64,000 nucleotides of DNA, from positions 1 through 64,000 of the forward strand of contig CAJXZG010000010.1 in the NCBI GenBank assembly GCA_913063265.1, given 5' to 3'. Of the stretch, positions 45,414 to 64,000 are shown in pieces (within the stretch, counting starts at the first letter, position 1; each line of letters begins with the position of its first letter). The notes under the pieces were generated by a model. That model was given only the letters and a program-made list of their open reading frames with translations. It was not told the origin of the DNA and ran no database searches. This stretch comes from an uncultured Prolixibacteraceae bacterium (GTDB lineage Bacteria > Bacteroidota > Bacteroidia > Bacteroidales > Prolixibacteraceae). A program made the position numbers and the translations under genes.

Positions 45414-45457
45414 ACTTGTACGGACAAGAATATTTTCGTATAATTGTACGTACAAGT
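45414..45457 (+). promoter_or_regulatory. Pair of GntR-type operators flanking a promoter-like box
   Basis: Site 1 ACTTGTACGGACAAGA (45414-45429) and site 2 AATTGTACGTACAAGT (45442-45457) differ from the perfect palindrome ACTTGTACGTACAAGT by two and one bases. Their centres are 28 bp apart. Between them lies TATTTTCG (45431-45438), a one-mismatch TAnnTTTG box. The perfect version of the palindrome occurs at 60931-60946 near the GntR gene. Repressor binding here would cover both sides of the promoter. Confidence 0.7.
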
Positions 45458-45560
45458 AAAATAAGCCTTTTTTGACCTGAGCTTAATGTCGATTTTGAAT
45501 CGAGAAAGACCAACAATTCAAATTTATATACATAAAACATAAACTTTAAATTAAATTATT

Positions 45561-48500
45561 ATGAAACTAAAACTTCTACTTTTACTTATTTTGCTGTCGT
45601 GTGGCATAGTAAATGCACAAAACGATACGATTAAAACCCTGATTTTTACGCAGTATGCGGCAGGGGGAGATGTTGGTTGGCATACAGAAATAACCAATGT
45701 CGGTGATGAGCCAATTCAGATGGGAGATTTTAAATTGGTAAAACTTTCTCCTTATGTCGATTTTCAGATTTTTGACGAGAACACAGATGAATGGGGACCA
45801 AATCCTGCCTATTTCTTTTTTCCTGAAAGAATGCTTCAACCCGGAGAATCCTATGTTGTTACAGGAGCCGTAGATTTTGGCCCTGCGCAATATCAGAAAA
45901 GAGTTCCGGGTTTTCAGGATACAGAACAACAAAAAAATCCTGACTGGTATGAAGTAGCTGATTTGTTAATTCACTGGAAAGAGTATAAAAGTACACCTGA
46001 AGATATTGACAGTGTAACCACAGCCATTCCGGGATCAAAGGGATGGGGTGATATTTCCGGTATTTTGGGACACTGGAGAGGAAGAGATGGTTTTTATCTG
46101 GAACAACATTTACCAAACGGTGATTCGGTGGTTGTAGACCAGGTAAATTGTGTATTTGACAACGATGGTAAAAATCAGGATGCCGGTGGTTACGATGTTG
46201 CGGGTGTTGCATTGGCATCTGGACACAGTACAATAGTAAGAAAATTCGTAGTGAAATCGGGGAACCTTAAATTTAGAGAATCAAGAGGTGTGGGTGAAGA
46301 CGATTCAGAATGGATGGTGGTTCCAAAAGAAGCAAGTCAATATCGGGATCTTGTTTGGATTCATGGAAATCATGGAGATTATAACCTGGATGAAAATACA
46401 CTGGAATCAGACTTAATTGATGTTGATTTTGCGGGAAAAGTAATTACTGTTCCATGGGGTACCCGGAGAGGTGATGGAATTATGCAACATATGGTTAAAA
46501 AGCCGGGAGTGGCTTGGGAATATATCCTGAATACCAATGTTGAAGATTCTTTGGCATTTGGATGTCGAACAGGTGATCAACTTAAAATTTATGTTTGCGG
46601 AAACGATCTGGATGTTGCAACTTTTGATATAGTAGTTGCTGATCCCACTGAAGAAACTAATGTGGTAATTCCTGTGGCTAATTTAGATGTTGGTGGCTGG
46701 TGGAGAAGAGCTGTGGAAAGAGGTGCAGGAGATTATGGTTGGCCCAGAGTATCTGAGAATGCATCAGGAATGGATACCATCTCAGGCCGTTGGCAGGGTG
46801 CAGGTACAAAAATTGGTATTCCTTATGCTACAAGGGTTGACAGTTTGATACAAATGCTTGAAAAACCTGCAAATGCTTCATGGGAATTTGTATGGGTTGA
46901 TGATGTTGAAAGGCCCGATTTAAAAGAAGGTGATAAATTAAAAGTAACGGCTCAGAATGGTAATGTTAAGGAATATTACATTCAGGTACAGGAAAAACAG
47001 GTGAGCTCTAATGCATATTTAAGCTCTATCACCTGGCCCGATATCCCTGATCATTATAAGGGATTGTTTGGATGGATTGGAGATACAATTCCAAATTTTG
47101 GTCCACAGGTGTACAATTACAAAGTTCAGGTCCCGCTTGATGTTGATGGAATACCCGCTTTGTTGGCTAAAACAGAAGATTTAAATGCAATTGTTGAAGT
47201 AAAAAGAGCTACCAGTTTATCAGGAACATTGGAAGATAGAACAGTTAGATTTATCGTTACTGCGGAAGATGATAGTGTAATGCAGGTATACAGCATTGAA
47301 TTAATAAAAGAGAAAGATCCAAGAAAACTTCAGCCATATGTGGCCGAGCCATTTATTTCAGAATCTGTTTTTGCCGATCAGTGGGCAAATTTCTTCACTG
47401 AAATAGTAAATCCGGGTAATCAGGCACTGGATTTAAGTGATTATATGATTGTGTCCGGTTGGGTTTCCGATCCTGCAGGTGCAATAAGTCAGGCAAGCGG
47501 TGAAGGTGACTGGAATAACAGATATATGAGATATGTTCCTGGTTATAAGTGGGTTGATCAGCAGAACTGGGAAATAACTCCTTCCATGTTGGAGCAGGAT
47601 TTAAATGTAAACTCAATTGTTTATCCTGGTGATGTGTTCTGTTTGGGGGCCATAGGTAATGATGGTCAAACAAAGCACCCTAACTTTGTGAATGATTATT
47701 GGTGGGTACCCGATCAACTTGATGTACAATTCAGAAATTCCGGTGGCTATACCAATCCATGGAATGAATCAACAGGAGCAAATACAGCAGCAGGTAGCTG
47801 GGGAACAAGTACCTATCTTTTTAAAATCTTAAACGATTCAATTAAACAAGGTTTAAAGCCTGCTACTGACCCTGCCGATTTTGAATTAGTTGATGTTATT
47901 GGAATGGTTGACGGTTCAGGTTGGGTTGTTGGCGGATGGTCATATTGGGTAATGACCTGTAATATTATCAGAAAACCTGAAATTTATAAAGGTGTACCTG
48001 AACTTCAAAAATCATTTGGCACAAACGACGATGATTCAGAATGGTTACATTACGACAGACCTTACTGGCAAGCTCAAAACGTTGGTTATCCTCGTGATAT
48101 CTTATATGATGCTGCTGACCTAGGAAAACACTTTATGTATACTCCGACTTTTTACATGTCAACGGTAAGTTCGGTAGTTTATAAGGTAAGCGAAGGTTAT
48201 TCAATGAAAGAATTTATCCGTGGTCCAAAAACAGGAACTACTGCGGCAGAATTCTTAAGCAATATTATAAAAGCCGATGATGGACAGAAATTAAAGCTTA
48301 AAGGTTCAAATGGTGAATTACCGGGAGATGCAGCGTTAAGTTTGAATGATACTTTGATTGTAATGTCAGCCGATAGTGTTAATACTACAAAATATGTCAT
48401 CGAAGTATCTGAAGATGGTTTGAGTTCAAATGCCATATTGACTTCAAACAGATATAAAATTGACATAACTGCCAGCCCAAAAAGTTCTGTAGCAGAAGCA

Positions 48501-49520
48501 GGGACAGGAACTGTAACAGGATTCGAATATGGAACTTCATTAAGAACAATTGTAGCCAATATTAATGTGCCTGCCGGTGCAAATATGGATATTGTAGACA
48601 GCGAAGGTGCGTATGTACCTTTAACAAAATTGAATTTCGATACAAGCTATGTAAATGTAACTGTAAATAATAATACGTTCTTACATGTTACAGCTGAAGA
48701 TGGAGTTACCGCTATTATTTATCAGTTAATTCCTGACGGAACGGAAAGTGATGCATTCTTAACTTCAGATGTTTATACAGTTTATCAGAAAAATACCTTG
48801 ATTGATTTTGTTCCCAGAGGAACAAATGCTGCGGTATTCCTTTCAAATCTGGTTCCTTCCAGCGGTGCGAGCATTACGCTTGTTAATAAAATGGGGCAGG
48901 AAAGAATGGACGGAAACATTGTTCAGGATGATAAGGTTGTTGTTACTTCAGCAAACGGAATGAATTCCAGAGTTTATTACATTTCAATGCTTCCTACCGA
49001 ATATATCAAAGAAACTTCTTACCTGGCTTACATATTATCAAATGTATATATGGTAGATCAGGTTTCATTAATGGTTAATGGAGTTTCTGGTACTGAACTT
49101 GTAGCAGATTTCTTAACAAAAATTGATGCAGTAGAAGGTGCAACCGCAATGGTAGTTGATGCCGATGGAAATCCAAAAACTTCAGGTGATATTGACCGGG
49201 ACGATATGGTTAAAGTAACATCGTTAGACGGAAAAGCAGTTGTTTATTATAGTTTTGGTACTTTAACTTCAAGCAATATGTTCGATACAAATAATATCGA
49301 ATTATATCCAAATCCAACAAATAATCACATTAATATTAGTGGAGTAAAAGACGGATACCAAATTCAGATTTATAACTCTGTTGGGGCAATCATTCGTGAA
49401 GTAAATGTTCAAAACAGTATTGAAACGATTACACTGTCAGACCAACCGGCAGGAATGTACATGGTTGTTGTAAAAGGTGAAGGAAAAATTGTTGGGCGAT
49501 ACAAAGCGCTCAAGAATTAG
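45561..49520 (+). CDS. Large repeat-rich secreted protein with T9SS sorting domain
   Basis: 1319 residues. Signal peptide 1-19 (ending VNAQ). Two related segments, about 22-250 and 600-860, look like lamin-tail-type beta-sandwiches (TEITNVGDEPIQMGDFKLV; TEIVNPGNQALDLSDYMIV). The middle and C-terminal parts contain several units of about 90 residues with a common end pattern (IVMSADSVNTTKYVIEV, VVVTSANGMNSRVYYISM, VKVTSLDGKAVVYYSF), preceded by an SNAxLTS-like start. The end has the T9SS type A signal: ELYPNPTNNHINISG, then GMYMVVVKG. It is therefore secreted to the cell surface. No catalytic motif is recognised; a binding or scaffold role is possible. It is the first gene of the GH9/GH27/GH2/sulfatase cluster and lies behind two GntR-type operators. 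Confidence 0.85.
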   Translation: MKLKLLLLLILLSCGIVNAQNDTIKTLIFTQYAAGGDVGWHTEITNVGDEPIQMGDFKLVKLSPYVDFQIFDENTDEWGPNPAYFFFPERMLQPGESYVVTGAVDFGPAQYQKRVPGFQDTEQQKNPDWYEVADLLIHWKEYKSTPEDIDSVTTAIPGSKGWGDISGILGHWRGRDGFYLEQHLPNGDSVVVDQVNCVFDNDGKNQDAGGYDVAGVALASGHSTIVRKFVVKSGNLKFRESRGVGEDDSEWMVVPKEASQYRDLVWIHGNHGDYNLDENTLESDLIDVDFAGKVITVPWGTRRGDGIMQHMVKKPGVAWEYILNTNVEDSLAFGCRTGDQLKIYVCGNDLDVATFDIVVADPTEETNVVIPVANLDVGGWWRRAVERGAGDYGWPRVSENASGMDTISGRWQGAGTKIGIPYATRVDSLIQMLEKPANASWEFVWVDDVERPDLKEGDKLKVTAQNGNVKEYYIQVQEKQVSSNAYLSSITWPDIPDHYKGLFGWIGDTIPNFGPQVYNYKVQVPLDVDGIPALLAKTEDLNAIVEVKRATSLSGTLEDRTVRFIVTAEDDSVMQVYSIELIKEKDPRKLQPYVAEPFISESVFADQWANFFTEIVNPGNQALDLSDYMIVSGWVSDPAGAISQASGEGDWNNRYMRYVPGYKWVDQQNWEITPSMLEQDLNVNSIVYPGDVFCLGAIGNDGQTKHPNFVNDYWWVPDQLDVQFRNSGGYTNPWNESTGANTAAGSWGTSTYLFKILNDSIKQGLKPATDPADFELVDVIGMVDGSGWVVGGWSYWVMTCNIIRKPEIYKGVPELQKSFGTNDDDSEWLHYDRPYWQAQNVGYPRDILYDAADLGKHFMYTPTFYMSTVSSVVYKVSEGYSMKEFIRGPKTGTTAAEFLSNIIKADDGQKLKLKGSNGELPGDAALSLNDTLIVMSADSVNTTKYVIEVSEDGLSSNAILTSNRYKIDITASPKSSVAEAGTGTVTGFEYGTSLRTIVANINVPAGANMDIVDSEGAYVPLTKLNFDTSYVNVTVNNNTFLHVTAEDGVTAIIYQLIPDGTESDAFLTSDVYTVYQKNTLIDFVPRGTNAAVFLSNLVPSSGASITLVNKMGQERMDGNIVQDDKVVVTSANGMNSRVYYISMLPTEYIKETSYLAYILSNVYMVDQVSLMVNGVSGTELVADFLTKIDAVEGATAMVVDADGNPKTSGDIDRDDMVKVTSLDGKAVVYYSFGTLTSSNMFDTNNIELYPNPTNNHINISGVKDGYQIQIYNSVGAIIREVNVQNSIETITLSDQPAGMYMVVVKGEGKIVGRYKALKN

Positions 49521-49548
49521 TTTTAGTTTAATATTTTAAAAATTTACA

Positions 49549-49576
49549 GAGCCCGGGTTTTCGGGCTTTGTTTTTT
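49549..49576 (+). terminator. Terminator-like hairpin inside the cluster
   Basis: AGCCCG pairs with CGGGCT (loop GGTTTT), followed by TTGTTTTTT. It lies between the T9SS protein gene and the first GH9 gene, 18 nt before the latter's ATG, so it may reduce transcription of the hydrolase genes relative to the first gene. Confidence 0.65.
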
Positions 49577-49593
49577 GAAATTAATTAGAGAAA

Positions 49594-52515
49594 ATGAATA
49601 AGTTTTTTTTGACGATTTTTTTTGTGTGTTTTCTTTTGGGAACGGTACGTGCTTCCGATATTATTGAAATTATACCGATAACCAATAAAATTATTGCTCT
49701 TCATTTTGATGATGGTTATGCAGTATATCATAAAAAAGGACAAAAACGAAATAATGAAAGAGTAGTTGTAGAATTGTTGGATGTTAATCAGGCAGAAATG
49801 CTTTCCAGCTATTCAATTTCAAGTACAAGCGATGAAAATTATATAAAAGCGACAGAACCTGTTGATATCGGTCGAAAAACAAAAGGTTCTGAATTTACAT
49901 GGATGTGCCAAAGCTGGAACAATGGCTGTGTCAATCGTGATCCTGATCATGTAAAAGAACACTGGATTTATTTGTATTTGCCAGAAGCATTAAAAAATGG
50001 TCATCGATATATTTTAAATACAACAGATGTTGCAAATAATGGTAGTGTTTGGCATATTGTGTACAACGAAAAAAGATGCAATTCGCCTGCAATTCATACT
50101 AATTTATTAGGTTACAAACCTGAGGCAGTAGAAAAATTTGCGTATCTCTATCATTGGGTGGGAGATAAAGGTAGTGTAAATCTTTCGGCTTATTCAAACA
50201 AAAGGTTTTATCTTATCGACCACTTTACTGAAGAAATGGTTTTTGAAGGAAAGGTAGATTTTCGAAAATCAAAAAACAATGTTGAAACAGGTCAGCCCAA
50301 TGAAACACCCAACAATAACTTTTTGGGCGCTGATGTTTATCAATGCGATTTCTCCGCTTTTAAACAACCCGGGAAATACCGACTTGTAATCGAGAACCTG
50401 GGATGTTCCAATCCTTTCAGAATTCAGGATGATATTTACCAACAGGTTTTTTATACCTCAATTCGGGGACTTTATCATAACCGCAGTGGAATTGCTCTTG
50501 AAGAACCTTATACCGGGTTTACCCGCCCGGCACCTCATAATCCATTAACTACTCCAGGTTTTGCAGGAAAATTAAAATATACAACATCACGTTTTATCGA
50601 CTGGAAAGATGGAGATCATTCATCCGCAGACAAACCTGCTATTGAAGCCGGAATTTTAGGCAGTATTAATAGCTGGGGTTGGTACCAGGATGCCGGTGAC
50701 TGGGATGGATATATTTCACATTTAAAAGTGCCTTCCATTCTCATGTTTAGCTGGCAAATTGCTCCCGAAAACTATATCGACAATCAATTAAATCTTCCGG
50801 AAAGTGGAAACGGAATTCCTGATATTTTGGATGAGGCTGCTTTTCTGATTCGTTATTTTCAGCGTACCCGTCAGTTAATTATTGAAAATGGTTACGGAAC
50901 GGGTGGTGTGGGTGCCCGTGTTTGTGGCGACCATTTTGGTGGAGATGGAGAAGGTATTCCATCTTACGAAGATGTAAACCGCACTTATATAATTTCGGGA
51001 GAAGATCCACATTCAACCTATAAATATGCTGCTTTGGCTGCACAGTTTGCCTATATTCTGAATACTATGGAAATTAAAGATCCGGAAGGAATAAACTGGG
51101 AAACCGAAGCGCATGAGGCTTACCATTGGGCAAAAAACAACACCATGCCGGGCGACGAAGATCCAAAACCGGCAATGAAAGACAAACTCAGCGATTTTAG
51201 AGCTTATGCGGCGGCAATGCTATATCAGTTAACCGGAGAAGAAACTTACAAAACACAAATGGAAAAAGATATGGCATGGTTAAGCGGCAGCAGTTCTCCC
51301 GGTGGGGAACAAATCTGGTCTGTTTTTACCGTGGCCGGTTTCCCTGATAGCCTGGATTCGGATCTAAAAACCAAAGCCAAACAAGCTATTATTAATGTTG
51401 CCAATAGTTATGTTTCAACTGCAAGTAAGCGTGCATGCCGCTGGGGAGGTAATTACTATTTTCCCATGTTAATTGGGCAGGCAACCACTCCTATGGTATT
51501 TGAAATTATAATGGGCTATCATCTGGTAAAAGACAGCAATCCGACACAAGCCGGATCATATTTAAAAGTTATTCAAAATACGGCTGATTACTTATTAGGT
51601 ACAAATCCGTTAAATACTACCTGGATTACAGGGCTGGGAATCAAACAACCGGGAAGAGTATTTCATATGGATTCATGGTATAACGGAAAAGAAGAAATGG
51701 CCCCGGGAATTACTCCTTATGGAGCTTATCGAGACCAAAGCTGGTTTACCGGACAGGGAATCTGGGACGTAGCCTGGTCGTATAAATCCATTTATCCTTC
51801 GGATATTAACGAATGGCCCGGACATGAACGGTGGTTTGGAAATCATGGAACACCTTTAAATGCCGAATTTACGATTCATCAAAATACAGTGCTGAATGCT
51901 GCAGTTTATGGATTTTTAGCAGGTGTGGCAAATCCTGATTTTAAAGACAACCAAAAACCGGAAGTGTCAGAATTTCAGGTAAAACTTTCCAATGACTCCT
52001 TACGATTGGAGGCTCAGGTGTCCGACCCGGATGGGGAAAACACAATTCATAAAGTTGAGTTTTATAACGACTGGCATAAAATCGGAGAGGCAAAAGCAGA
52101 ACCTTTCAATATTAAATACAAACCCAAACCGGGAGAAAAAATAGAGATCAAAGCCAAAGTAATCGACGAACTGGGGGCGTATTCGTATTCCGAAATAAAA
52201 TATGAAGGAGATATAATTACTTCGGATCTAAGATTGAAAAAAGGCAAAGTGAGGGTATTTCCAAATCCTTTTCAAAATGAAATAGAGTTTAGTATTTCAA
52301 ATTCAAAATCAGAAAAACTTCAATTAGAAATATACAGTCTGACCGGGAAATTGGTTTATTCTCAAGGGTTGAATCCAGACCCGGGATTTACCAAAAATAT
52401 TACATGGTCTCCCGGTAAAAACAATATTCCCGCAGGAATGTATTTGTACAAAATATTTAATCCCGGAAACTTAAATGCAGATCAATTTACAGGAAAAATA
52501 TTTTACCAACTTTAA
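49594..52515 (+). CDS. Glycoside hydrolase family 9 protein with T9SS sorting domain
   Basis: 973 residues. Signal peptide 1-20. An N-terminal Ig-like domain of the CelD type lies around 165-275 (NPFRI), then the GH9 (alpha/alpha)6 barrel. WYQDAGDWDGY holds Asp366 and the base Asp369 in DAGD, LPESGNGIPDILDEAAFLIRYFQRTRQ follows, and the acid is probably Glu758 in NAEFTIHQN. A beta-sandwich of about 90 residues follows, and the C-terminus is a T9SS type A signal (RVFPNPFQNEIEFSI ... GMYLYKIF). It is therefore an exported inverting enzyme on a beta-linked glycan; classical GH9 members are cellulases, but this one is divergent. It lies 73 nt after the T9SS protein gene and 9 nt before the next GH9-like gene. 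Confidence 0.88.
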   Translation: MNKFFLTIFFVCFLLGTVRASDIIEIIPITNKIIALHFDDGYAVYHKKGQKRNNERVVVELLDVNQAEMLSSYSISSTSDENYIKATEPVDIGRKTKGSEFTWMCQSWNNGCVNRDPDHVKEHWIYLYLPEALKNGHRYILNTTDVANNGSVWHIVYNEKRCNSPAIHTNLLGYKPEAVEKFAYLYHWVGDKGSVNLSAYSNKRFYLIDHFTEEMVFEGKVDFRKSKNNVETGQPNETPNNNFLGADVYQCDFSAFKQPGKYRLVIENLGCSNPFRIQDDIYQQVFYTSIRGLYHNRSGIALEEPYTGFTRPAPHNPLTTPGFAGKLKYTTSRFIDWKDGDHSSADKPAIEAGILGSINSWGWYQDAGDWDGYISHLKVPSILMFSWQIAPENYIDNQLNLPESGNGIPDILDEAAFLIRYFQRTRQLIIENGYGTGGVGARVCGDHFGGDGEGIPSYEDVNRTYIISGEDPHSTYKYAALAAQFAYILNTMEIKDPEGINWETEAHEAYHWAKNNTMPGDEDPKPAMKDKLSDFRAYAAAMLYQLTGEETYKTQMEKDMAWLSGSSSPGGEQIWSVFTVAGFPDSLDSDLKTKAKQAIINVANSYVSTASKRACRWGGNYYFPMLIGQATTPMVFEIIMGYHLVKDSNPTQAGSYLKVIQNTADYLLGTNPLNTTWITGLGIKQPGRVFHMDSWYNGKEEMAPGITPYGAYRDQSWFTGQGIWDVAWSYKSIYPSDINEWPGHERWFGNHGTPLNAEFTIHQNTVLNAAVYGFLAGVANPDFKDNQKPEVSEFQVKLSNDSLRLEAQVSDPDGENTIHKVEFYNDWHKIGEAKAEPFNIKYKPKPGEKIEIKAKVIDELGAYSYSEIKYEGDIITSDLRLKKGKVRVFPNPFQNEIEFSISNSKSEKLQLEIYSLTGKLVYSQGLNPDPGFTKNITWSPGKNNIPAGMYLYKIFNPGNLNADQFTGKIFYQL

Positions 52516-52524
52516 ACCTAAAGA

Positions 52525-55059: not shown

Positions 55060-55150
55060 CTTGGTGAAACTCTGTGTCTACTTTGTGTAGCTTCGTGTAA
55101 CTATAATTACACAGAGATGCTCAAAGAATGCACAAAGGTGCTTAAAGACA
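55060..55150. repeat. Inverted intergenic repeat, CTTTGTG/CTCTGTG family, copy 1
   Basis: Left arm GGTGAAACTCTGTGTCTACT...TTCGTGTAA and right arm, read backwards, GCACCTTTGTGCATTCTTTG...CTCTGTGTAA, separated by a short AT spacer. The same words recur at 58480-58575 and, more diverged, in the flanks of the GxxExxY gene. Confidence 0.55.
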
Positions 55151-55173
55151 GAAAAAACTAAAATTGACCTAAA

Positions 55174-57079
55174 ATGAATAATACCAAAATTCTAACCTTT
55201 ATCATCCTCTTTCTTCTTGGATTTCAGCAAATCGATGCAAGCGATAAACCAAACTTTATCTGGATCAATTGTGAAGATATCAGTCCAAACCTTGGTTGTT
55301 ATGGCGATGATTATGCAACAACTCCCAACATCGATGCATTGGCTGAAAGCGGAATAGTTTTTACCGAAGCATTTTCTGCAGCACCAATTTGTACACCTTC
55401 CCGTACATCATTAATTACAGGTGTTTATGCAACATCAATAGGAACGCAGCATTTAAGAAGTATGGTAGAGCGAGATCCCCGAATTAAAACAATTGCTGAA
55501 TTAATGAGTAACGCAGGATATTTTACATCCAATAGTGCCAAGACCGATTACAACTTCGACCCAACAGGTATTTGGGAATACTGGAAACAGGACGAAGCTC
55601 CATGGCGACAAAGAAAAGATGACAGACCTTTTTTCTCAATGTTTGTTTATGGAATGACACATGAAGGCAGCACCAATAAACCAGATAATTGGGAGAAAAA
55701 CACTGCGGGTTGGCCCAAAGAAAAGTTTCATAAAGATCCTAATGTTTTTGTTCCACCTTACTTTCCAAACAACGATGTTTTTAAAAAAATATACAATCGT
55801 TACTACGACAATATCACGGTTTTTGATGAAACAGTTGGGGAAATTATCGAAAACCTGAAGAACGATGATTTGCTGGAGAATACTTTTGTGTTTTTCTGAT
55901 CACGGTACAGGTTTGCCACGTTATAAAAGGTGGTTAAACAATACCGGAATTCATGTTCCGCTTGTGGTTCATATTCCGGAGAAATACAAAAAACTGGTTG
56001 AGGTTAAACAAGGAAGCTCCGTTGATGATTTGGTGAATTTGGTGGATTTGCCTTCAACCGTTTTGTCTATTGCTGATGTTCCAATTCCTGAGATAATTGA
56101 GGGACAGGCATTTTTGGGTCAGCAAAAAGAAGCACCACGAAAATATATTTACACTACTCGAAGCCGTGCAGACAATATGTACGAAATGTCGCGTTCCATT
56201 CGCGATAAAAGATTTATATATATCAAACACGGACTTCCACATGTTGCTTATATGCAACCCGGTTTTATTTTTGATGAAAAGAAAGAGAGTTTTGCAGAAT
56301 TACACCGACTTTACAATTTAAATGAGTTACCGGCGGAAACAACGAAAATGTATAAGCCAAAGGGACGGGAAGAACTTTACGATCTTGAAAACGATCCCTT
56401 CGAACTGAATAACCTTGCTGATGACCCGAATTATAAAAAGATAAAAAATAAATTAAAAGATGAACTGGCGGATTGGCAAATTAAAACACATGATACCGGC
56501 TTATTTCATGAAGCTGAATATATGTGGGAATCCAGGGATTCGAATCCGTATAACTGGAGTCGTGAACAACCTGAAAAAAGAATTAAAAGCCTGGTTGAAA
56601 TTTCCTCAAATATTGGCGATAAAGATGCAAATTTCTGGTTGTCAAAATTAAAAGACAAAGATCCTGCGGTAAGGTACTGGGCTGTGATTGGCTTACACGC
56701 ATTGAATGACAACTCTTTAAAAGTGATTGAAGCATTAGACAAAGCCCTGGAAGATGAAAATCCAACCGTAGCCATTTCTGCAGCTTTAACAATGCTTGAG
56801 TACAAAACTTCGGATAAAGCACTTGATGTACTAGGAAAATATATGTTGGATGATCGACCTTATGTTTCTTTATATGCATCGCGTTGTACAGAACTGGCCG
56901 GGATAAAAGCTAAACCTTTGATTCCTGTTATGTACGAAGTGTTGGAGAAAAATAAAAAACAAGAAGGCGTACCAAGTAACCATAAAGTGTACAAAGATTT
57001 TGAATTTGCCTCTTTTACCAGCTGGTCGATAAAATATGCTTTGCACATTTGTGGGGAGGATATTGATTATTCATTTTAA
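55174..57079 (+). pseudogene. S1 sulfatase with HEAT-like C-terminus, interrupted by a frameshift
   Basis: The first frame (55174-55899, 241 residues) has a signal peptide (ending IDAS), FIWINCEDISPNLGCYG, the formylglycine motif Cys73-T-P-S-R77, and ends ENTFVFF at a TGA (55897-55899). The next frame (from 55865) continues CFSDHGTGLPRYKRWLNN, which is what should follow FF; SDHG carries the metal-binding Asp-His. One extra T in the T5 run 55891-55895 would join both into a protein of about 635 residues. After the sulfatase domain (LYDLENDPFELNNLADDP) come HEAT-like repeats (DPAVRYWAVIGLHALND; NPTVAISAALTMLEY). So the gene is either newly inactivated or the base is a sequence error. It lies in the GntR-type cluster. 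Confidence 0.85.
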
Positions 57080-57282
57080 GAATATATTTTATAAGTGCAA
57101 TTACAAAAACTATTGGATTTCTCATTAAACTCTCCCTCACTCCCTCTCTTCGAGAAGAGAGGGAAGATTGTTACGCAGAAACAATAAGGGTGAGTTATAA
57201 AATAGAAGTATTTCGAAACCAATAATTATTATTTAACATTCAATTTTGTTATTAAGTAGAACATAATCAAATAAATAAATCA
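57080..57282. other. Intergenic region between sulfatase and GH27 genes
   Basis: 203 nt with the perfect palindrome CCCTCTCTTCGAGAAGAGAGGG-type element at 57142-57163 (11-bp arms). It resembles dispersed G/C-purine repeats of Bacteroidota. It may form a stable hairpin in the transcript and act as a processing or partial stop signal; no T-run follows. Confidence 0.5.
57142..57163. repeat. Perfect 22-bp palindrome
   Basis: Arms CCCTCTCTTCG and CGAAGAGAGGG meet without a spacer (CCCTCTCTTC-GA-GAAGAGAGGG in effect). It lies in the transcript between the frameshifted sulfatase and GH27. Likely a dispersed repeat element. Confidence 0.55.
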
Positions 57283-58479
57283 ATGAAACAACTAACATTA
57301 TTTTTAATATCAATTATCTTCTTGTTCTCGAATGCAACAGCACAAGAAGGATTTGACAAACTTGCGTTAACACCGCCAATGGGCTGGAACAGTTGGAATA
57401 CTTTCAGGCTGGAAATTAACGAAGACCTTGTAAAAGAGGTAGCCGATGTTTTTATCGAAAAAGGTCTAAAAGATGCCGGTTACGAATTTGTAGTTATCGA
57501 CGATGGCTGGCAAATCGATCGCGATGAGGAAGGAAATATTATCACAAACCCTGATAAATTTCCATCAGGAATAAAAGATTTGGCCGATTATGTACACACC
57601 AAGGGATTAAAATTTGGGATTTATTCCGATGCAGGTTACGAAACCTGTGGAGGTTTTCCCGGTAGTTTGGGCTATGAATATCAGGACGCCCGGCAATATG
57701 CTGCCTGGGGTGTGGATTATTTAAAATACGATTGGTGCAACACAGGAAATCAAAGTGCACCCGACAGTTATTTGTTAATGCGAAACGCCATAGAAAAGGC
57801 AGGTCGACCGATTGTTTTTAGCATGTGCGAGTGGGGACTTTCGAAACCATGGGAGTGGGGCGAAGGAATTGGGAATCTTTGGCGTACAACTTTAGATATT
57901 CGTCCTTGCTGGGATTGTAGTAAAATGGGACATATTAACGAAGTACGAGTGGAGAATTTTATGGGATTTACAAAAATCCTCGACTTGCAGGAAGGATTGG
58001 AAATTTATGCCGGACCGGGGCACTGGAACGATCCCGATATGCTGGAAGTTGGAAACGGGGAGTTAACTTATGATGAAAATGTTGCCCACTTTAGTTTGTG
58101 GTGTATTTTGGCAGCTCCACTAATGTTGGGAAACGATGTTCGAAATATGTCGGACGAAATACTTGAAATTGTTACCAACAAAGAATTGATTGCTGTTAAC
58201 CAGGATCCTTTAGGGCGTCAGGGCAAAAAAGTTCGTGATGATGGCGATTTTGAAGTTTGGAGTAAAGAATTAAATGATGGAAGTAGGGCGGTGTGTTTGT
58301 TTAACCGTTCAGAAGAAGAAGCTGAATTTGGATTTACGTGGAGTGAAGTTGGTCTGCCTCAAAATATAGATTTTAAATTACGCGACCTTTGGTTAAAAGA
58401 AGAATTAGGAAAATTTGATGGAGAATACAAGGCTATAGTTCCATCACATGGGGTGGTTGTGGTGAAGGTTTATAATTAG
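57283..58479 (+). CDS. Alpha-galactosidase, glycoside hydrolase family 27
   Basis: 398 residues with a signal peptide (1-20, ending ATAQ). Barrel motifs: LTPPMGWNSWNTF (29-41), FVVIDDGWQ (69-77), the nucleophile Asp150 in YLKYDWCN, and the proposed acid/base Asp205 in LWRTTLDI. GPGHWNDPDMLEVGNG follows, and a C-terminal beta-sandwich with RAVCLFNRSEEEAEFGF completes the fold. The enzyme is a retaining alpha-galactosidase (some members act on alpha-N-acetylgalactosamine or beta-arabinopyranose). It would remove alpha-linked galactose from the polysaccharide attacked by the GH9-like enzymes. Next gene is a GH2 enzyme, 110 nt on with a repeat in between. Length and motifs fit the family fully. 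Confidence 0.96.
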   Translation: MKQLTLFLISIIFLFSNATAQEGFDKLALTPPMGWNSWNTFRLEINEDLVKEVADVFIEKGLKDAGYEFVVIDDGWQIDRDEEGNIITNPDKFPSGIKDLADYVHTKGLKFGIYSDAGYETCGGFPGSLGYEYQDARQYAAWGVDYLKYDWCNTGNQSAPDSYLLMRNAIEKAGRPIVFSMCEWGLSKPWEWGEGIGNLWRTTLDIRPCWDCSKMGHINEVRVENFMGFTKILDLQEGLEIYAGPGHWNDPDMLEVGNGELTYDENVAHFSLWCILAAPLMLGNDVRNMSDEILEIVTNKELIAVNQDPLGRQGKKVRDDGDFEVWSKELNDGSRAVCLFNRSEEEAEFGFTWSEVGLPQNIDFKLRDLWLKEELGKFDGEYKAIVPSHGVVVVKVYN

Positions 58480-58575
58480 TTTCTAACTCTGTGAAACTCT
58501 GAGTATTCTTTGTGCAACTCTGTGTTAAAGCTATTACACAAAGTCTCACAAAGTAGGTACAAAGAATCTCGAAGA
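58480..58575. repeat. Inverted intergenic repeat, CTTTGTG/CTCTGTG family, copy 2
   Basis: Left arm CTCTGTGAAACTCTGAGTAT...CTCTGTGTTA and right arm, read backwards, GATTCTTTGTACCTACTTTG...CTTTGTGTAA, with a short spacer. It is the same family as 55060-55150 and sits in the same kind of place, just upstream of a hydrolase start. Confidence 0.55.
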
Positions 58576-58589
58576 TTAAATCATTAATC

Positions 58590-60782
58590 ATGAAAAATTA
58601 CCTGTATTTAGTTTTGGTTGTTTTTTTATTTGTACAATGCTCAACGGAATCTTCAAAAAGGACAACAATTTCTTTAAAAGGATCCTGGCAAATTGCACAA
58701 AGTGTTATAGACCAAATTCCGGAAAAGTTTGAACGGGAAATTCCGGTTCCGGGTTTGGTGGATTTGGCTTTACCGGCTTTTGATAGTGTTGGGGTAAAAA
58801 CGCAAATAAGAAATTATTTCTGGTACAAAACAACATTTAATACAAATGCAGAAGATTCGCAAATAGCCATCCTAAAATTTCATAAGGTAAAGTACGGATT
58901 AAAAGCCTGGATTAATGGCTTTGAGATAGGGGAGAGTATGCTCAATTTTACCCCCGCAAAATTTCAGGTAAAGGAGTTTCTTCGAGAAGGTGAAAACGAA
59001 TTGATAGTCCGTGTTTTTGCCACACCCGACATGTTACCAGACTCGATAGTTTGGGGACACGATTTTGAAAAATTGAAATATATTCCCGGAATTTACGATG
59101 ATGTCCAGTTGATACTTACCAATCCACCCTTTATTAAAAATGTTCAGCTTGTTCCTCAAATCGAGGAAAGTAAAATCGATGTATTGTGTTGGTTAGAAGG
59201 GACAAAACAGAAAAATCAGATTTTAAATTACAAAATTACTGAAGTTAAAGGTGGGGCTGTAGTTGCCAAAGGGAAAGTAACTAAAGAACTGGAAAAAATT
59301 GATGGAGAAGACGGGGCTCAGTTTTCGATAGAAATCCCCGGTGCAAAACTTTGGTCGCCGGAAAATCCTTTTTTATATGAATTAGAAATTCAGACTGAGG
59401 AAGATTCGTACAAATCTAATTTTGGCATGCGCAATTTTAGGTTTAATCCGGAAACAAAACGAGCTGAATTAAACAATGCGTTGTATTATTTACGGGGAAC
59501 CAACATTTGTATTTTTCGTTTTTCTGAAGATGCGGTTCGAAATGATTTAATTTGGAATAAAGAATGGGTACGCGGATTGTATCGGAAAATGAAAGATTTG
59601 CATTACAACAGCTTTCGTTTTTGTATCGGATTTCCTCCCGGGTTTTGGTATGATTTGGCTGATGAAATGGGATTTGTTGTTCAGGATGAATACCCGATTT
59701 GGTATGGTGCCCGGCCCGAAATGTTTCCAACAACCTGGACGGCAACGGAGCTGGCTTTTGAATACAGCGAATGGATGAAGGAACGCTGGAATCATGCCTG
59801 TGTTTTAACCTGGGATGCACAAAACGAATCGCTTACAGATTTAACAGGGGAAGCATTAGAATTGGTTCGTCATCTCGACCGCTCCAACCGACCCTGGGAC
59901 AATGGTTATTCGCCACCCATGCGGGAAAGTGATCCTATAGAAACTCACCCTTATCGATTACAGAATTTTTTGGGAAAACGACCAGGAGTGCAAGGTCCAT
60001 TGTTTGATTATTTTACTGAAAAGCTAATTCCTGACAACGGACCAAGTGAATTATATCCTCCTGAAGATGGTGGAATATATCCTAATCCGATTATTATTAA
60101 TGAGTATCCGTTTTATTGGCTCAACCGTGATGGATTGCCAACCGGACTTACAAAATATATTTATCAAAATATTTTTCAGGAAGAGTTAAGCAAAGAAGCA
60201 TATCAATTAACTCATGCGCAGGTGGTTGCAAAACTTACGCAGTATTGGCGAGCGTATAGAACAAGCGCTGGAGTTCAGCATTTTGTGATGTTGGGATACT
60301 CACGTGGGCAAAATGAAAAAGATTATACAAGCGATAATTTTGTAGACGTTGCAAACCTAAAACTGGAACCTCAGTTTGAAAAGTATATGAAAAGTGCCAT
60401 GTATCCCGTTTGTATTTTAATCGACCGGTGGGAAGAGTGGTTTTGTAAAGAAACTCAAATTGAAATTCCGGTAAAATTGATAAATGACAATCCGGAATCA
60501 TGGAAAAACAGAGTAACTTTCCAATTGAAAAAGGGAGAAGATATTCTATCTCAGCTTGAAAAAGAAATTGAAATTCCGGGTTATGGATCTTTTGATTTTA
60601 CAGAAACAATTGACCGACCAAAGGAATTTGGATTTTATACAGTACTGGTTTCCTTCGAAGAAAATGGAGAAACTATATTTTCAGAATATAATTTTGAGGT
60701 AAGAAAAACAGAAGTCAAACAATACGAATCACCTTCAAAATGGGTGGATAAACAGTTTATTCATGCAAAAGAAAATGGATGA
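58590..60782 (+). CDS. Glycoside hydrolase family 2 protein, lipoprotein
   Basis: 730 residues with a lipoprotein signal and lipobox FVQC (Cys17). GH2 order: jelly roll with GSWQIAQSV and PVPGLVDLA (31-60) and WYKTTF, Ig-like domain with LWSPENPFLYELEIQ, then the barrel with YLRGTNICIFRFSED, RFCIGFPPGFWYDLADEMGFVVQDEYP, the acid/base candidate Glu413 in WDAQNESL and nucleophile candidate Glu505 in INEYPFYW. It is a relative of the GH2 gene at 12528, with the same PVPGL, PGIxDDV, LRGxN and FWYDLADE blocks, and lacks the extra C-terminal domain of true beta-galactosidases. Substrate unknown; presumably a beta-linked sugar of the cluster's polysaccharide. It is anchored in a membrane. Confidence 0.9.
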   Translation: MKNYLYLVLVVFLFVQCSTESSKRTTISLKGSWQIAQSVIDQIPEKFEREIPVPGLVDLALPAFDSVGVKTQIRNYFWYKTTFNTNAEDSQIAILKFHKVKYGLKAWINGFEIGESMLNFTPAKFQVKEFLREGENELIVRVFATPDMLPDSIVWGHDFEKLKYIPGIYDDVQLILTNPPFIKNVQLVPQIEESKIDVLCWLEGTKQKNQILNYKITEVKGGAVVAKGKVTKELEKIDGEDGAQFSIEIPGAKLWSPENPFLYELEIQTEEDSYKSNFGMRNFRFNPETKRAELNNALYYLRGTNICIFRFSEDAVRNDLIWNKEWVRGLYRKMKDLHYNSFRFCIGFPPGFWYDLADEMGFVVQDEYPIWYGARPEMFPTTWTATELAFEYSEWMKERWNHACVLTWDAQNESLTDLTGEALELVRHLDRSNRPWDNGYSPPMRESDPIETHPYRLQNFLGKRPGVQGPLFDYFTEKLIPDNGPSELYPPEDGGIYPNPIIINEYPFYWLNRDGLPTGLTKYIYQNIFQEELSKEAYQLTHAQVVAKLTQYWRAYRTSAGVQHFVMLGYSRGQNEKDYTSDNFVDVANLKLEPQFEKYMKSAMYPVCILIDRWEEWFCKETQIEIPVKLINDNPESWKNRVTFQLKKGEDILSQLEKEIEIPGYGSFDFTETIDRPKEFGFYTVLVSFEENGETIFSEYNFEVRKTEVKQYESPSKWVDKQFIHAKENG

Positions 60783-60928
60783 AAAGTATTGTTAAAAACC
60801 ATGTGTTAAATAAAGGTGCGGTTAGATGCTCAGTTTTCTTCTGTTATATAAATTATATTTGCTAAATTGTACGCTAATTCCCAGTCACATATAACTTCTT
60901 ACAAATCATCTTAAATTATTCTATAATT

Positions 60929-60948
60929 ATACTTGTACGTACAAGTAT
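60929..60948 (+). promoter_or_regulatory. Perfect GntR-type operator
   Basis: AT-ACTTGTACGTACAAGT-AT is a perfect 20-bp palindrome covering the -33 region of the promoter at 60954. The core TTGTACGTACAA recurs at 45442-45457 (one change) and 45414-45429 (two changes). The GntR/UTRA gene at 63442 is the most likely binder. Confidence 0.8.
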
Positions 60949-60953
60949 TTTTG

Positions 60954-60961
60954 TATATTTG
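60954..60961 (+). promoter_or_regulatory. Promoter -7 box for the GH9-like/GntR unit
   Basis: TATATTTG, an exact TAnnTTTG match, with TTG at 60933-60935, 18 nt upstream, inside the operator. Repressor bound to the palindrome would cover the -33 element. Transcription would begin near 60968 with a leader of about 110 nt. Confidence 0.65.
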
Positions 60962-61076
60962 TATTGTTATGCCGGTAACTCAGAAGTTATTCTGAATAAT
61001 TATCGGAGAAAACTTTAGTTAAATGCTTATCAAAAATGATAAGCCATAGTGAATTAAAGAACTTGACCATAAACTT

Positions 61077-63383
61077 ATGAGAAATCAAACAAAAAAAATA
61101 GCGTTAGGAATCCTAATGTTTTTTGTCTTAATAATGCACTTTCAATCAAATGCGACAAAACTTATTGAAGTTCTTCCAGTAGATAATCAGTGCCTCGTTC
61201 TTCATTTCCAGGATGGAGCCGTAGAATACAACTGGGACGATACAATTAGTGGTTCTTGCAATGGGTGGGATTATTATCATACTGAAAAATGGAGTTTGTG
61301 TCCCGACAAAGATCAATATATTCCTTTTGGAAATGCCTTAAATACAAATCCGGAAATCCTTTCATCAGCTTTTTCAATCGTTTCTGTGGACGACAAAAAT
61401 TATGGATTATTAGGAAAAACACCGGTTAAAGTTTATCGAAAGTCTAAAGTGTGGGAAGCGGCAATTGATGAAAGGATACCGGCAATGCATCACTGGATTT
61501 ACCTGGAGTTACCTCACCCTTTGGAAAAAGGAGTAAAATATGACATAAAAATTGATGGAAAAACGGAATCGGATAAAACCGAATTTGAATTGGTTTATGA
61601 TGAATACAAATTAGAATCACCTTCAATTAAAATTTCAAATATAGGTTACGAAACTGATGCAGTTTTTAAATCAGCAGATGTGTATTTATGGATGGGTGAC
61701 GGAGGTGGCCGTGATTTTTCAAGATTTACAGGAAAGAACTTTTATTTGGTCGATTCAAAAACCAACAAAAAAGCATTTACAGGTAAACTGGAATTCAGAA
61801 CAAAAAGTAAACCGGAGCCAGAATATGATAAAAACTTTACCGAAGCCGATGTTTGGGATTGTGATTTTTCAGAATTTAAAAAGCCGGGAAAATACAAATT
61901 GGTAATTGATGGAATTGGATGCAGTCGGCCTTTTGAAATTGGAGATAATCTTTTTGATGAAGCTTTTAAAGTAGCAATGCAGGGAATGTTTTATCTGCGA
62001 ATGGGTTGTGAAGAAAAACCGGTTGGTGATAATCCCCGGGCCCGCAGACCATTATTTAAACAGGGTGTGGAACCTGATGGTTTTGAAGTTTTTATTTCAA
62101 AAAAGGATATGGTAACAGGAACCAATCCCGACAACCGAAATTATTACAGTGAAGAAATCACTGGCGACGTAGCCAAAGAAACATGGGGAGGTTGGTGTGA
62201 TGCTTATGACAACGATCAGCGTCCACCAAATTTTATCACAGTTTTTGATATTCTTCTTACCTACTATTTAAATCCTGATATCTATAAAGATAATCAGCTG
62301 TATGTAACCGAAATTAACAATGCTATTCCTGATATTTTGGATGAAGCACTTTATGAAATCGACTGGTGGTTGCGAATGCGAGATGCTAATGGAAGGTATT
62401 TAACCGGACTTACAAATATTACCGATCATAAAGTGAATTATGCCGGTGCTCCATGTGCATGGCAGGGCTATTGCGTGGCTGCCGGATGTGCGATGGTTGC
62501 CGACTGTTTCAGGCTGAATGGAAATCAAAAACTTCAAAAGAAATACCAGACTGAAGCTTTAACTGCTTACAAATGGGCTGAAAAGCAAACCGATCAGATG
62601 AGGGATGTAGCATCCAGTAATTTAAGAGGTAAGGATTTAAAAATGACAGCAGCAGCAGCCTTGTTTAATTTAACCGGGGAAAGTGTTTATGAGGAAGTTG
62701 TAAAAGCGGAAAGTGAAGTAACAAATGCGACATCCAAGGTTCGGAATATAGGAAAATGGGAACAACAGTTTGCTGCAGTTCCTTACATTTTATCACCGCA
62801 AAAAATCTCTTTTCCTGAACTTCAATCCAGCATGAGAAAATCAATCATTAATCAGGCTAAAATTGATTATGTGGATAAAATGAAAAACAGTCCGACTAAA
62901 GCAATTCGCTGGTCAGGAGGTTGGGAAGGAATGATGCAAACATCCAACGAGATTTCCCTGGTTGCAATAGCACATAAACTGACTAAAAATAAAGAGGACA
63001 AGAAATATTTTGAAAAAGGCTTGTATGCAGAGGCTGAGTGGACTTTAGGAAGAAATCCGCTTGGTTTGGTTCAAATGACCGGATTAACAGAACGCTGTTT
63101 TACACAGACTTTTGCTCCGGGTCGACGGGATGGATACCCCGGATTAACACCGGGATGGACACCATATATGTGCCGTGACGGCTGGATGAGAGGTGACGAT
63201 AATATTATCGCATGCGATTGGTACACTGCGCGAAGTTATCCTGAAAATAAAGAAGTATGGCCATGGGGAGAAACATTTTGGAATAGTCGTTATTGCGTTC
63301 CAAGTGGAGAGACTACTCCCCATCAAACCATTCGTCAGAAAATTGTTTTGTATGGCTATTTATTGGCTTTAGGGAACAATTAG
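61077..63383 (+). CDS. Divergent GH9-family protein, secreted
   Basis: 768 residues, signal region about 1-26 (RNQTKKIALGILMFFVLIMHF, then SNA). An Ig-like CelD-type domain (about 180-300, ISNIGYETDAVFKSADVYLWMG ... GCSRPFEIG) precedes the barrel. WGGWCDAYDND has Asp375 and Asp378 at the DAGD position (DAYD), and NNAIPDILDEALYEIDWWLRMRD follows. Glu745 in SGETTPHQTIRQ is at the place of the catalytic acid, with the usual (N)E changed to GE. No T9SS domain. The substitutions make cellulase activity doubtful. It has its own operator and promoter and is followed 58 nt on by the GntR gene, so enzyme and regulator are probably co-transcribed. Confidence 0.85.
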   Translation: MRNQTKKIALGILMFFVLIMHFQSNATKLIEVLPVDNQCLVLHFQDGAVEYNWDDTISGSCNGWDYYHTEKWSLCPDKDQYIPFGNALNTNPEILSSAFSIVSVDDKNYGLLGKTPVKVYRKSKVWEAAIDERIPAMHHWIYLELPHPLEKGVKYDIKIDGKTESDKTEFELVYDEYKLESPSIKISNIGYETDAVFKSADVYLWMGDGGGRDFSRFTGKNFYLVDSKTNKKAFTGKLEFRTKSKPEPEYDKNFTEADVWDCDFSEFKKPGKYKLVIDGIGCSRPFEIGDNLFDEAFKVAMQGMFYLRMGCEEKPVGDNPRARRPLFKQGVEPDGFEVFISKKDMVTGTNPDNRNYYSEEITGDVAKETWGGWCDAYDNDQRPPNFITVFDILLTYYLNPDIYKDNQLYVTEINNAIPDILDEALYEIDWWLRMRDANGRYLTGLTNITDHKVNYAGAPCAWQGYCVAAGCAMVADCFRLNGNQKLQKKYQTEALTAYKWAEKQTDQMRDVASSNLRGKDLKMTAAAALFNLTGESVYEEVVKAESEVTNATSKVRNIGKWEQQFAAVPYILSPQKISFPELQSSMRKSIINQAKIDYVDKMKNSPTKAIRWSGGWEGMMQTSNEISLVAIAHKLTKNKEDKKYFEKGLYAEAEWTLGRNPLGLVQMTGLTERCFTQTFAPGRRDGYPGLTPGWTPYMCRDGWMRGDDNIIACDWYTARSYPENKEVWPWGETFWNSRYCVPSGETTPHQTIRQKIVLYGYLLALGNN

Positions 63384-63441
63384 ACCAAATAAAAGAGTAG
63401 GAACTTGAAGAACTTATCCATACAGACTAACAAATTGAATT

Positions 63442-64000
63442 ATGAAGAAATACATCAAAGTTCGGGACAAATTAAAAAAGCAAATTCAACTTGGAGAATT
63501 TAAAGTTGGAGATTTGCTTCCATCGGAACACACGCTTTGCCGTACATTTTCAATCACACGAACAACGGCAAGAAAAGCTTTGGATGAACTTTTAAAGGAA
63601 GGCTTTATTGAAAAGCAACACGGTAAGGGAAGTGTTGTAATCGAACGGAGACAATCCCTCGGTTTGTTGTCGGTAAAAGGTTTCTCTGAGGCAGTTGGTG
63701 AAAATGTAAGAACAACATTTCTTCAAAAGCCAAAGGTTGACAATTGGAGTGATGAAATTTTTTCGAAAATAAATAGTTCAGACTCCAGGGCGCAATGCGT
63801 AAGTTTTGAACGGGTTAGGTTTGTTGGCGATTTCCCGGTCATGATTGGAAAAAACTGGTTTAATGGCAATATAATACCCGGAATCACGGAAACGGAATTT
63901 GTGGAAGGATCATTTTTCAAAACATTAAGCAACAGGTATCTGATAGAAGTGACAGGCTCCTCTTCGGAATTGCGGGCAGAGGCTGCGAGCGAAAGAGTCG
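63442..64000 (+). CDS. GntR-family transcriptional regulator (HutC/UTRA type), 3' end cut by window
   Basis: 186 residues before the window end. An N-terminal winged helix (YIKVRDKLKKQIQLGEFKVGDLLPSEHTLCRTFSITRTTARKALDELLKEGFIEKQHGKGSVV) is the GntR DNA-binding domain: PSEHTL, RTTARKALDELLKEG and the wing QHGKGSVV. A UTRA-type effector domain begins near residue 75 (LGLLSVKGFSEAVGENVRTTFL; SFERVRFVGDFPVMIGKNWF; ITETEFVEGSFFKTLSNRY). The effector is probably a sugar or sugar phosphate. It lies in the same unit as the GH9-like gene, whose promoter bears the TTGTACGTACAA palindrome, so autoregulation is likely. About 60-70 C-terminal residues are missing. Confidence 0.92.
   Translation, partial: MKKYIKVRDKLKKQIQLGEFKVGDLLPSEHTLCRTFSITRTTARKALDELLKEGFIEKQHGKGSVVIERRQSLGLLSVKGFSEAVGENVRTTFLQKPKVDNWSDEIFSKINSSDSRAQCVSFERVRFVGDFPVMIGKNWFNGNIIPGITETEFVEGSFFKTLSNRYLIEVTGSSSELRAEAASERV

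Follow-up and report, generated by a model that had tools for sequence, protein, structure and literature searches.

A conserved palindrome paired with a GntR/UTRA regulator in marine Bacteroidota and its predicted role at two promoters of a T9SS/GH9/sulfatase cluster

Local control of sugar use by GntR-family proteins is known from several systems. Operators of the HutC subfamily are characterised by a GT-N4-AC spacing (PMC4494728). NagR (YvoA) of Bacillus subtilis, which combines a GntR DNA-binding domain with a UTRA effector domain, is a repressor (PMC4333415). AraR of the same organism, which makes up a separate minor subfamily of GntR (PMC4494728), has the operator consensus At(T/A)tGTaCGTAcaa(A/T)T (PMC4218819), and the GntR regulators listed for Bacteroides thetaiotaomicron include FucR (BT1272) and ManR (BT2103) (PMC3878776). 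Here we describe a palindrome in a 64,000-nucleotide stretch of DNA (the window; contig CAJXZG010000010.1 of assembly GCA_913063265.1) from an uncultured Prolixibacteraceae bacterium, where it is found at two promoters of a cluster encoding family 9 glycoside hydrolases (GH9), sulfatases and proteins with a type IX secretion system (T9SS) sorting domain, together with a GntR/UTRA regulator. We propose that the cluster's own GntR/UTRA protein uses the palindrome as its 16-bp operator, would act as a local, metabolite-responsive repressor at both promoters and would be released by a phosphorylated sugar, most likely a pentose phosphate, a reading to which we assign a probability of about 0.82.

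Operator palindrome and regulator across genomes

A perfect 20-base-pair (bp) palindrome, ATACTTGTACGTACAAGTAT, lies at 60929-60948, and two close copies at 45414-45457 surround a promoter-like box, exactly where an initial annotation, made from the letters of the window, had placed them. The annotation's statement that the window holds no further copy also stands: at up to three mismatches, the 16-bp core ACTTGTACGTACAAGT has exactly three matches (45414, 45442 and 60931), compared with a mean of 0.23 and a maximum of 2 in 100 dinucleotide shuffles of the window. Many unrelated copies elsewhere in the genome, which would have spoken against the annotation's reading, were not found, as in the 5,487,558 bases and 190 contigs of the host assembly (the window being bases 1-64000 of the 91,549-base contig C10) the sites at 60931 and 45442 are the only copies with 0-1 mismatch. 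Besides 45414, two mismatches occur at three places: within coding sequence (C158:37), 194 bp ahead of a methyltransferase gene (C33:33368) and 41 bp ahead of a paralogous GntR/UTRA gene (C177:1631). A wider regulon in the host genome is unsupported, since the 16-mer at up to three mismatches gives 24 places versus 43 for a reversed control pattern, and a 12-mer core at up to one mismatch gives 17 versus 13.

The conserved operator measures 16 bp. Over 47 sites, variation is almost absent from 16 positions and conservation drops sharply at both edges; the remaining 4 outer bp of the palindrome at 60929-60948 are local to the window. Because the sites were picked by their match to the 16-mer, only this conservation edge is independent evidence. 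An extended inverted repeat is not a general feature, as no flank position of the 47 sites has a z above 1.8. At L069 399-414 and at position 5944 of L076, L081 and L085 (G, C and L handles stand for genomes, contigs and loci, respectively) the operator is found inside a much longer near-perfect inverted repeat, the arms of which differ with their complementarity kept.

Footprinting in related genomes, which the annotation had suggested, revealed that the site tracks the orthologue of the regulator. With orthologues defined by at least 55% identity and sites by at most one mismatch, the site was present in all ten genomes with an orthologue and in one of the 91 without, among 101 relatives (Fisher p 5.7e-13, kinship ignored). 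It lies close upstream of gntR in nine of the ten; in the window's genome a GH9 gene stands in between. In a class-wide sample of 395 genomes, drawn evenly, none of the 394 besides the host's holds a perfect copy and four have one with a single mismatch, and the Fisher test is weak (0.013) because only the host's own genome has the orthologue. A scan of named genomes yielded 55 loci, of which L123-L126 (other phyla, DNA-binding head only) were excluded from every count. The remaining 51 orthologues share 45-63% identity where the gene is whole, and their records belong to Prolixibacteraceae, Cyclobacteriaceae, Flavobacteriaceae and other Bacteroidota. Five of these loci were taken as genomes of the relatives (L072 as G017, L074 as G027, L077 as G011, L095 as G016 and L097 as G053); the 51 loci, together with the host's own gene and those of G009, G029, G031 and G098, make up 56 distinct orthologues.

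A site with at most one mismatch occurs within 250 bp upstream of gntR at 31 of the 51 loci and anywhere in the locus at 40, while 60 shuffled palindromes gave a mean of 0.02 loci and a maximum of 1. For seven of the other 11 loci the genome was searched as a whole, and each yielded one perfect copy: four of these overlap the locus, that of L101 lies 9.4 kb from gntR on the contig of the same number, and those of L102 and L107 were taken from their coordinates to be on the gntR contig. Twelve genomes were searched genome-wide in all; exactly one perfect copy was found in 11 and one 1-mismatch copy in the twelfth. Counting locus or genome, 52 of the 56 orthologues are accompanied by a site. At seven loci of Flavobacteriaceae (L106, L108, L111, L112, L115, L116 and L117) the gntR-proximal copy deviates by 3-5 mismatches and a perfect copy is found elsewhere in the cluster, in L106, L116 and L117 96-146 bp ahead of a gene for a 400-amino-acid Gfo/Idh-like protein, which implies that the site serves target promoters and not gntR alone. 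A motif this short could in principle be a chance palindrome or part of a mobile repeat, but the shuffled, reversed-pattern and cross-genome controls contradict this, and we give it practically no weight.

Comparison across genomes thus establishes the pairing of site and regulator, its use in one cluster and the promoter geometry described below, and supports the claim that the palindrome links the GntR gene to both promoters of the cluster. Very probably, then, it is here that a local repressor which senses sugar docks; many marine Bacteroidota retain the site, usually in one or two copies per genome.

Promoter geometry and predicted action of the regulator

The regulator has an N-terminal GntR winged helix (PF00392, 55.2 bits with a cut-off of 27) and a C-terminal UTRA domain (PF07702, residues 103-225, 70.7 bits with a cut-off of 23.8), and its closest, though distant, match in a PDB sequence search is NagR (79 bits). 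The phosphate ligands of NagR, Thr90, Arg133, Arg135 and the helix start Ser165-Tyr167 (PMC4333415), align with Ser82, Arg124, Arg126 and Ser157-Phe159, each of which is kept in 50 or 51 of the 51 orthologues. The conservation of these residues suggests that the inducer is probably a sugar phosphate. The recurrent partner genes in relatives encode DeoC (at least 20 of the 51 loci), a 614-amino-acid GH9-like protein (at least 11), a sugar permease (at least 8), a serine hydrolase (at least 7) and a ribokinase (at least 6); these counts are lower bounds, being subject to ATG starts, an overlap filter, a 45% identity floor and the 6-kb reach of the loci, with gntR itself missed in 14 of 51. With ribokinase and DeoC among the recurrent partners, a pentose phosphate is our best guess for the effector.

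The -7 box of Bacteroidota promoters has the consensus TAnnTTTG (PMC9723704). In 21 of 51 sites this box begins 8-9 bp past the site, all other offsets summed giving eight matches, which argues that the site covers the -33 element. Where the box is present, the TTG of the left half-site lies about 18-20 bp ahead of it, that is, at the -33 element. The two elements are by rule spaced 19 bp apart; the spacer from TTG to -7 box is 18 bp at 60931 and 20 bp from copy 1 at the front promoter. The geometry fits that of an occluding repressor, with the operator on the -33 element and, at the front promoter, copy 2 on the -7 box and the predicted start.

We propose that a dimer of the regulator binds ACTTGTACGTACAAGT across the -33 element and thereby blocks its own operon, and that at the front promoter a second dimer would sit over the -7 box and the start site and block the front operon. 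When the pathway is active, a phosphorylated sugar would bind the UTRA domain and the repressor would be released, the likeliest effector being a pentose phosphate made by the cluster's ribokinase, either ribose-5-phosphate or 2-deoxyribose-5-phosphate, the substrate of DeoC. In most relatives the switch would go with a pentose module (the 614-amino-acid GH9-like protein, serine hydrolase, DeoC, permease and ribokinase). G011, G016, G017, G027, G031 and L082 have gntR with its site close to lepA, which is also the place of the copies at 45414-45457 of the window. From this we infer that in the host the GH9 enzymes, the sulfatase, the family 27 and family 2 glycoside hydrolases (GH27, GH2) and the T9SS protein were inserted between a lepA-side operator and gntR, so that the site would now serve two promoters and an outer attack and the inner catabolism would come under one switch. 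The GH9/sulfatase/GH27/GH2 block looks like an addition in the host genome. L080, another Prolixibacteraceae locus, has the order of the window: operator, GH9 with a T9SS-like end, gntR and the 614-amino-acid protein.

Some GntR proteins act as activators, and the regulator could accordingly be an activator or a dual regulator of the glycoside hydrolase cluster. This is improbable in view of the occluding position of the operator (about -35 to -20 at 60931 and at 21 of 51 sites, and copy 2 on the -7 box and start at the front promoter) and of NagR being a repressor (PMC4333415). An equally improbable alternative is that the site controls the gntR operon only, the front copies beside lepA being a functionless relic of a former gntR promoter. 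In its favour, the lepA side is the position of gntR and site in relatives, and copies 1 and 2 deviate from the perfect operator by two mismatches and one, respectively. However, both front copies persist, the spacing of their -7 box is normal and a large gene comes next; in addition, many other genomes retain perfect sites at a distance from gntR, and one site is found ahead of a GH9 gene in L080.

Several observations weigh against repression of the whole cluster through this site and a pentose phosphate. G051 has a perfect site and no orthologue was found in its genome; the site (locus L069; site and deoC at 399-1198 of contig C49) is 70 bp ahead of deoC on a short contig that starts 398 bp before it. 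Four of the 56 orthologues have no site with at most one mismatch at their locus (L089, with 113 bp upstream covered, L098, L105 and L110), L105 and L110 having 2-mismatch sites. The exact TAnnTTTG at +8/+9 is absent in 30 of 51 sites. A strong terminator-like hairpin stands just behind the first gene of the window's cluster, so that transcription from the front promoter may be limited largely to this gene. The 235-243-bp gaps downstream hold no operator-like site (6-7 mismatches at best), therefore control of deoC to ribokinase here would need very long transcripts, or other promoters take part. Lastly, in Flavobacteriaceae the same regulator-site pair stands with unrelated catabolic genes: the partners in Kriegella, Arenibacter and other members (scanned: L104 and L118) are a Gfo/Idh oxidoreductase, an SDR, a ROK kinase, a SIS protein, an FAD oxidoreductase and a phosphotriesterase-like protein, hence the effector may be something other than a pentose phosphate, or may differ by clade. 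L104, L106, L118, L148-L153 and other loci of Flavobacteriaceae and Cyclobacteriaceae appear as cases of a switch retained and a regulon content replaced.

Gene cluster around the operators

The features of the window are collected in Table 1.

Table 1 Operators, promoter elements and genes of the cluster in the window
Position	Strand	Feature	Remarks
45414-45429		Operator copy 1, front promoter, ACTTGTACGGACAAGA	2 mismatches
45439-45446	+	-7 box TATAATTG, front promoter	One change from TAnnTTTG
45442-45457		Operator copy 2, front promoter, AATTGTACGTACAAGT	1 mismatch; overlaps -7 box and predicted start site
45561-49520	+	1319-amino-acid protein, T9SS C-terminal sorting domain	Weak lamin-tail match (under Pfam cut-off)
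49546-49571	+	Terminator-like hairpin between first gene and first GH9 gene	11 pairs, then TTTTT; possible partial terminator
49594-52515	+	GH9, CelD_N domain, T9SS sorting domain	
52525-55059	+	GH9, CelD_N domain	38% identity to the GH9 directly 3' of gntR
55174-57079	+	Sulfatase	Split over two frames (55174-55899, 55865-57079) at a short T run
57283-58479	+	GH27-type alpha-galactosidase	Pfam Melibiase_2
58590-60782	+	GH2 family glycosidase	
60931-60946		Operator, second promoter, perfect ACTTGTACGTACAAGT	Core of ATACTTGTACGTACAAGTAT; -35 to -20 of predicted start
60954-60961	+	-7 box TATATTTG, second promoter	18 bp after the operator's TTG
61077-63383	+	GH9, CelD_N domain	Between operator and gntR; layout as in L080
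63442-64000	+	GntR/UTRA (HutC-type) regulator, 233 amino acids	Cut by window end; whole at C10 63442-64143 (L016 442-1143)

The first-gene hairpin ends 22 bp ahead of the next gene and may be an attenuator that yields a surplus of the first protein. The frame break of the sulfatase fits a sequencing error and a pseudogene alike. Only the 1319-amino-acid protein and the first GH9 have the T9SS sorting domain (PF18962); it is missing from the remaining two GH9 enzymes of the window. One GH9, encoded at 52525-55059, was compared with known structures and gave a distant match to cellulase-type GH9.

The initial annotation had eight genes in the cluster and the GntR gene as its end. The latter is an effect of the window edge, as gntR is cut at 64000 and the run of genes on the same strand continues for about 20 kb past it, up to 83758, where the genes reverse; the run comprises 21 genes with the split sulfatase counted once. 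In order, gntR is followed by a GH9 (after a 19-bp gap), a Fib_succ_major protein, a GH28, a further GH9, the 614-amino-acid protein, a GH36, a serine hydrolase of the beta-lactamase fold, DeoC, a permease of the ureide/sugar type, the ribokinase, an apiosidase-like DUF4038 protein, a small DUF559 protein and a second sulfatase that ends at 83758. DeoC scores 200.9 with its NCBIfam equivalog model (cut-off 117.3). By family models the kinase is classed as a ribokinase, one of two being above its cut-off (350.3 versus 299.65, an NCBIfam equivalog) and a second ribokinase model slightly under (333.7 versus 341). The annotation's remark that no SusC/SusD is in view holds, since the genes called between 45561 and 91336 of the contig gave no Pfam match to either. 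Its notion of a GntR-run polysaccharide regulon is partly supported by the operator pairing and proved too narrow, the recurrent partners of the regulator forming a pentose module.

The 614-amino-acid protein (L016 8439-10283, C10 71439-73283) has a twin-arginine-like start and found no match in Pfam, NCBIfam or a PDB sequence search. Its predicted model (mean pLDDT 65) resembles GH9, the best match being the exo-beta-D-glucosaminidase 5dgq with a TM-score of 0.43-0.45, too weak to name a substrate from it. The protein is a candidate for a new family near GH9.

A paralogous regulator and comparison with known systems

All ten relatives that have the regulator also carry a second GntR/UTRA gene of 35-39% identity. 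The paralogue of the host (G000, C177:882-1646, L019) has the operator ACTTGTAAATACAAGT, which differs from ACTTGTACGTACAAGT only in the central dinucleotide. At 20 paralogue loci of relatives, the site ACTTGTA-NN-TACAAGT, with at most one outer change, is found upstream of the gene in 19, and no clear site in one. The centres of these 19 sites are TT in ten, AA in five, TA in three and AT in one, never CG, whereas the 47 sites of the cluster regulator have CG in 41, TG in five and CA in one. The palindrome of the window might therefore belong to another regulator, either this paralogue of contig C177 or a global factor. Both proteins are encoded in the same genome and their operators share the 14 outer bases, yet the paralogue is present in many relatives without the CG palindrome, and its own sites have an A/T centre at 19 of 20 loci. 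The presence of the palindrome follows the orthologue of the cluster regulator, and a global factor would be expected at many sites instead of two promoters. We thus consider the ownership by another regulator slightly less probable even than the activator and relic alternatives, and retain the cluster's own protein as the likely ligand of the site.

The two proteins also differ in their DNA-binding domains, which were compared in 12 paralogues (the host's own and 11 of the 20 loci) and 51 orthologues (the host's own and 50 of the 51 loci, L122 being too short). Residue 41 is Thr in all 51 orthologues and Pro in all 12 paralogues, and residue 45 is Lys in 50 of the 51 orthologues and His or Gln in all 12 paralogues. 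Residue 41 aligns with Met49 of NagR. In HutC proteins, position 39 of the helix-turn-helix, most often Met, correlates with the central bases of the operator (PMC4494728, section 11), and in our own reading residue 41 would correspond to that position.

The centre of the operator may serve the insulation of the two regulators. Of 15 genomes searched with the paralogue, 13 gave a single match, identified as the orthologue from its coordinates; these genomes thus seem to lack a close paralogue. A changed centre (TG/CA or a double change) occurs at some site in six of the 13 (L087, L103, L104, L105, L109 and L120); the other seven, which equally lack a close paralogue, keep CG, which speaks against insulation, and the comparison is confounded with phylogeny. 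Taking these points together, one could imagine two paralogous repressors that share the 14 outer bases and are separated by the centre alone, through residue 41, which comes next to the first arginine of the recognition helix on its C-terminal side, and its neighbour, residue 45, the regulator of the CG site having captured a SusCD-less T9SS/GH9/sulfatase cluster and thereby tied (deoxy)ribose-phosphate catabolism inside the cell to the attack on a sulfated polymer outside it. This combined picture is tentative, and we regard it as possible, with the odds against it. If true, it would imply a so far undescribed source of pentose, either a glycan or a conjugate. The pair of paralogues differing in operator centre is in any case a natural experiment on GntR specificity.

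Among described systems, the regulator belongs to GntR/HutC by its domains and the spacing of its operator, the GT-ACGT-AC in the conserved 16-mer fitting GT-N4-AC. The subfamily consensus GTMTAKAC has a TA centre, typical rather than obligatory, unlike the CG found here; the paralogue has an A/T centre. With NagR the regulator shares the combination of GntR and UTRA domains, the GT-N4-AC operator, the phosphate-binding residues and the local control of sugar use; it differs in the CG centre, in the genes of the pathway, which is another one, and in its distant sequence. The operator also agrees with the AraR consensus at 14 of 16 positions, the exceptions being the second and the fifteenth; the CG centre is common to both, and the DNA-binding domain is related to that of AraR (4egy). 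In the literature searched, the core TTGTACGTACAA is printed once, as a putative araD operator of AraR in Geobacillus. AraR has an effector domain of the GalR/LacI type; the present regulator has UTRA instead and gave no GalR/LacI-like Pfam match, which argues that it is not an AraR.

Within Bacteroidota, FucR and ManR are likewise GntR-family regulators of monosaccharide pathways (compared by description), the difference being that the regulator here is found beside a GH9/sulfatase/T9SS block. The cluster resembles Sus-type polysaccharide utilization loci in its co-located glycosidases and sulfatases with a local regulator, but it has no SusC/SusD, and its regulator is a one-component GntR protein and not SusR, a hybrid two-component system or an extracytoplasmic function (ECF) sigma/anti-sigma pair. 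A literature search found no description of this regulon. The regulator-operator pair is kept from Prolixibacteraceae to Flavobacteriaceae and is tied to one cluster in the genomes examined, and with a predicted repressor, both operators, their promoters and a short list of inducers, a SusCD-less polysaccharide cluster becomes directly testable. Sugar regulons under GntR control have precedents among Bacteroidetes; judged from sequence comparison, the present regulon would be ordinary in kind and unusually clean, a well-supported one that comes with a neat specificity pair and with an unusual enzyme cluster devoid of SusCD.

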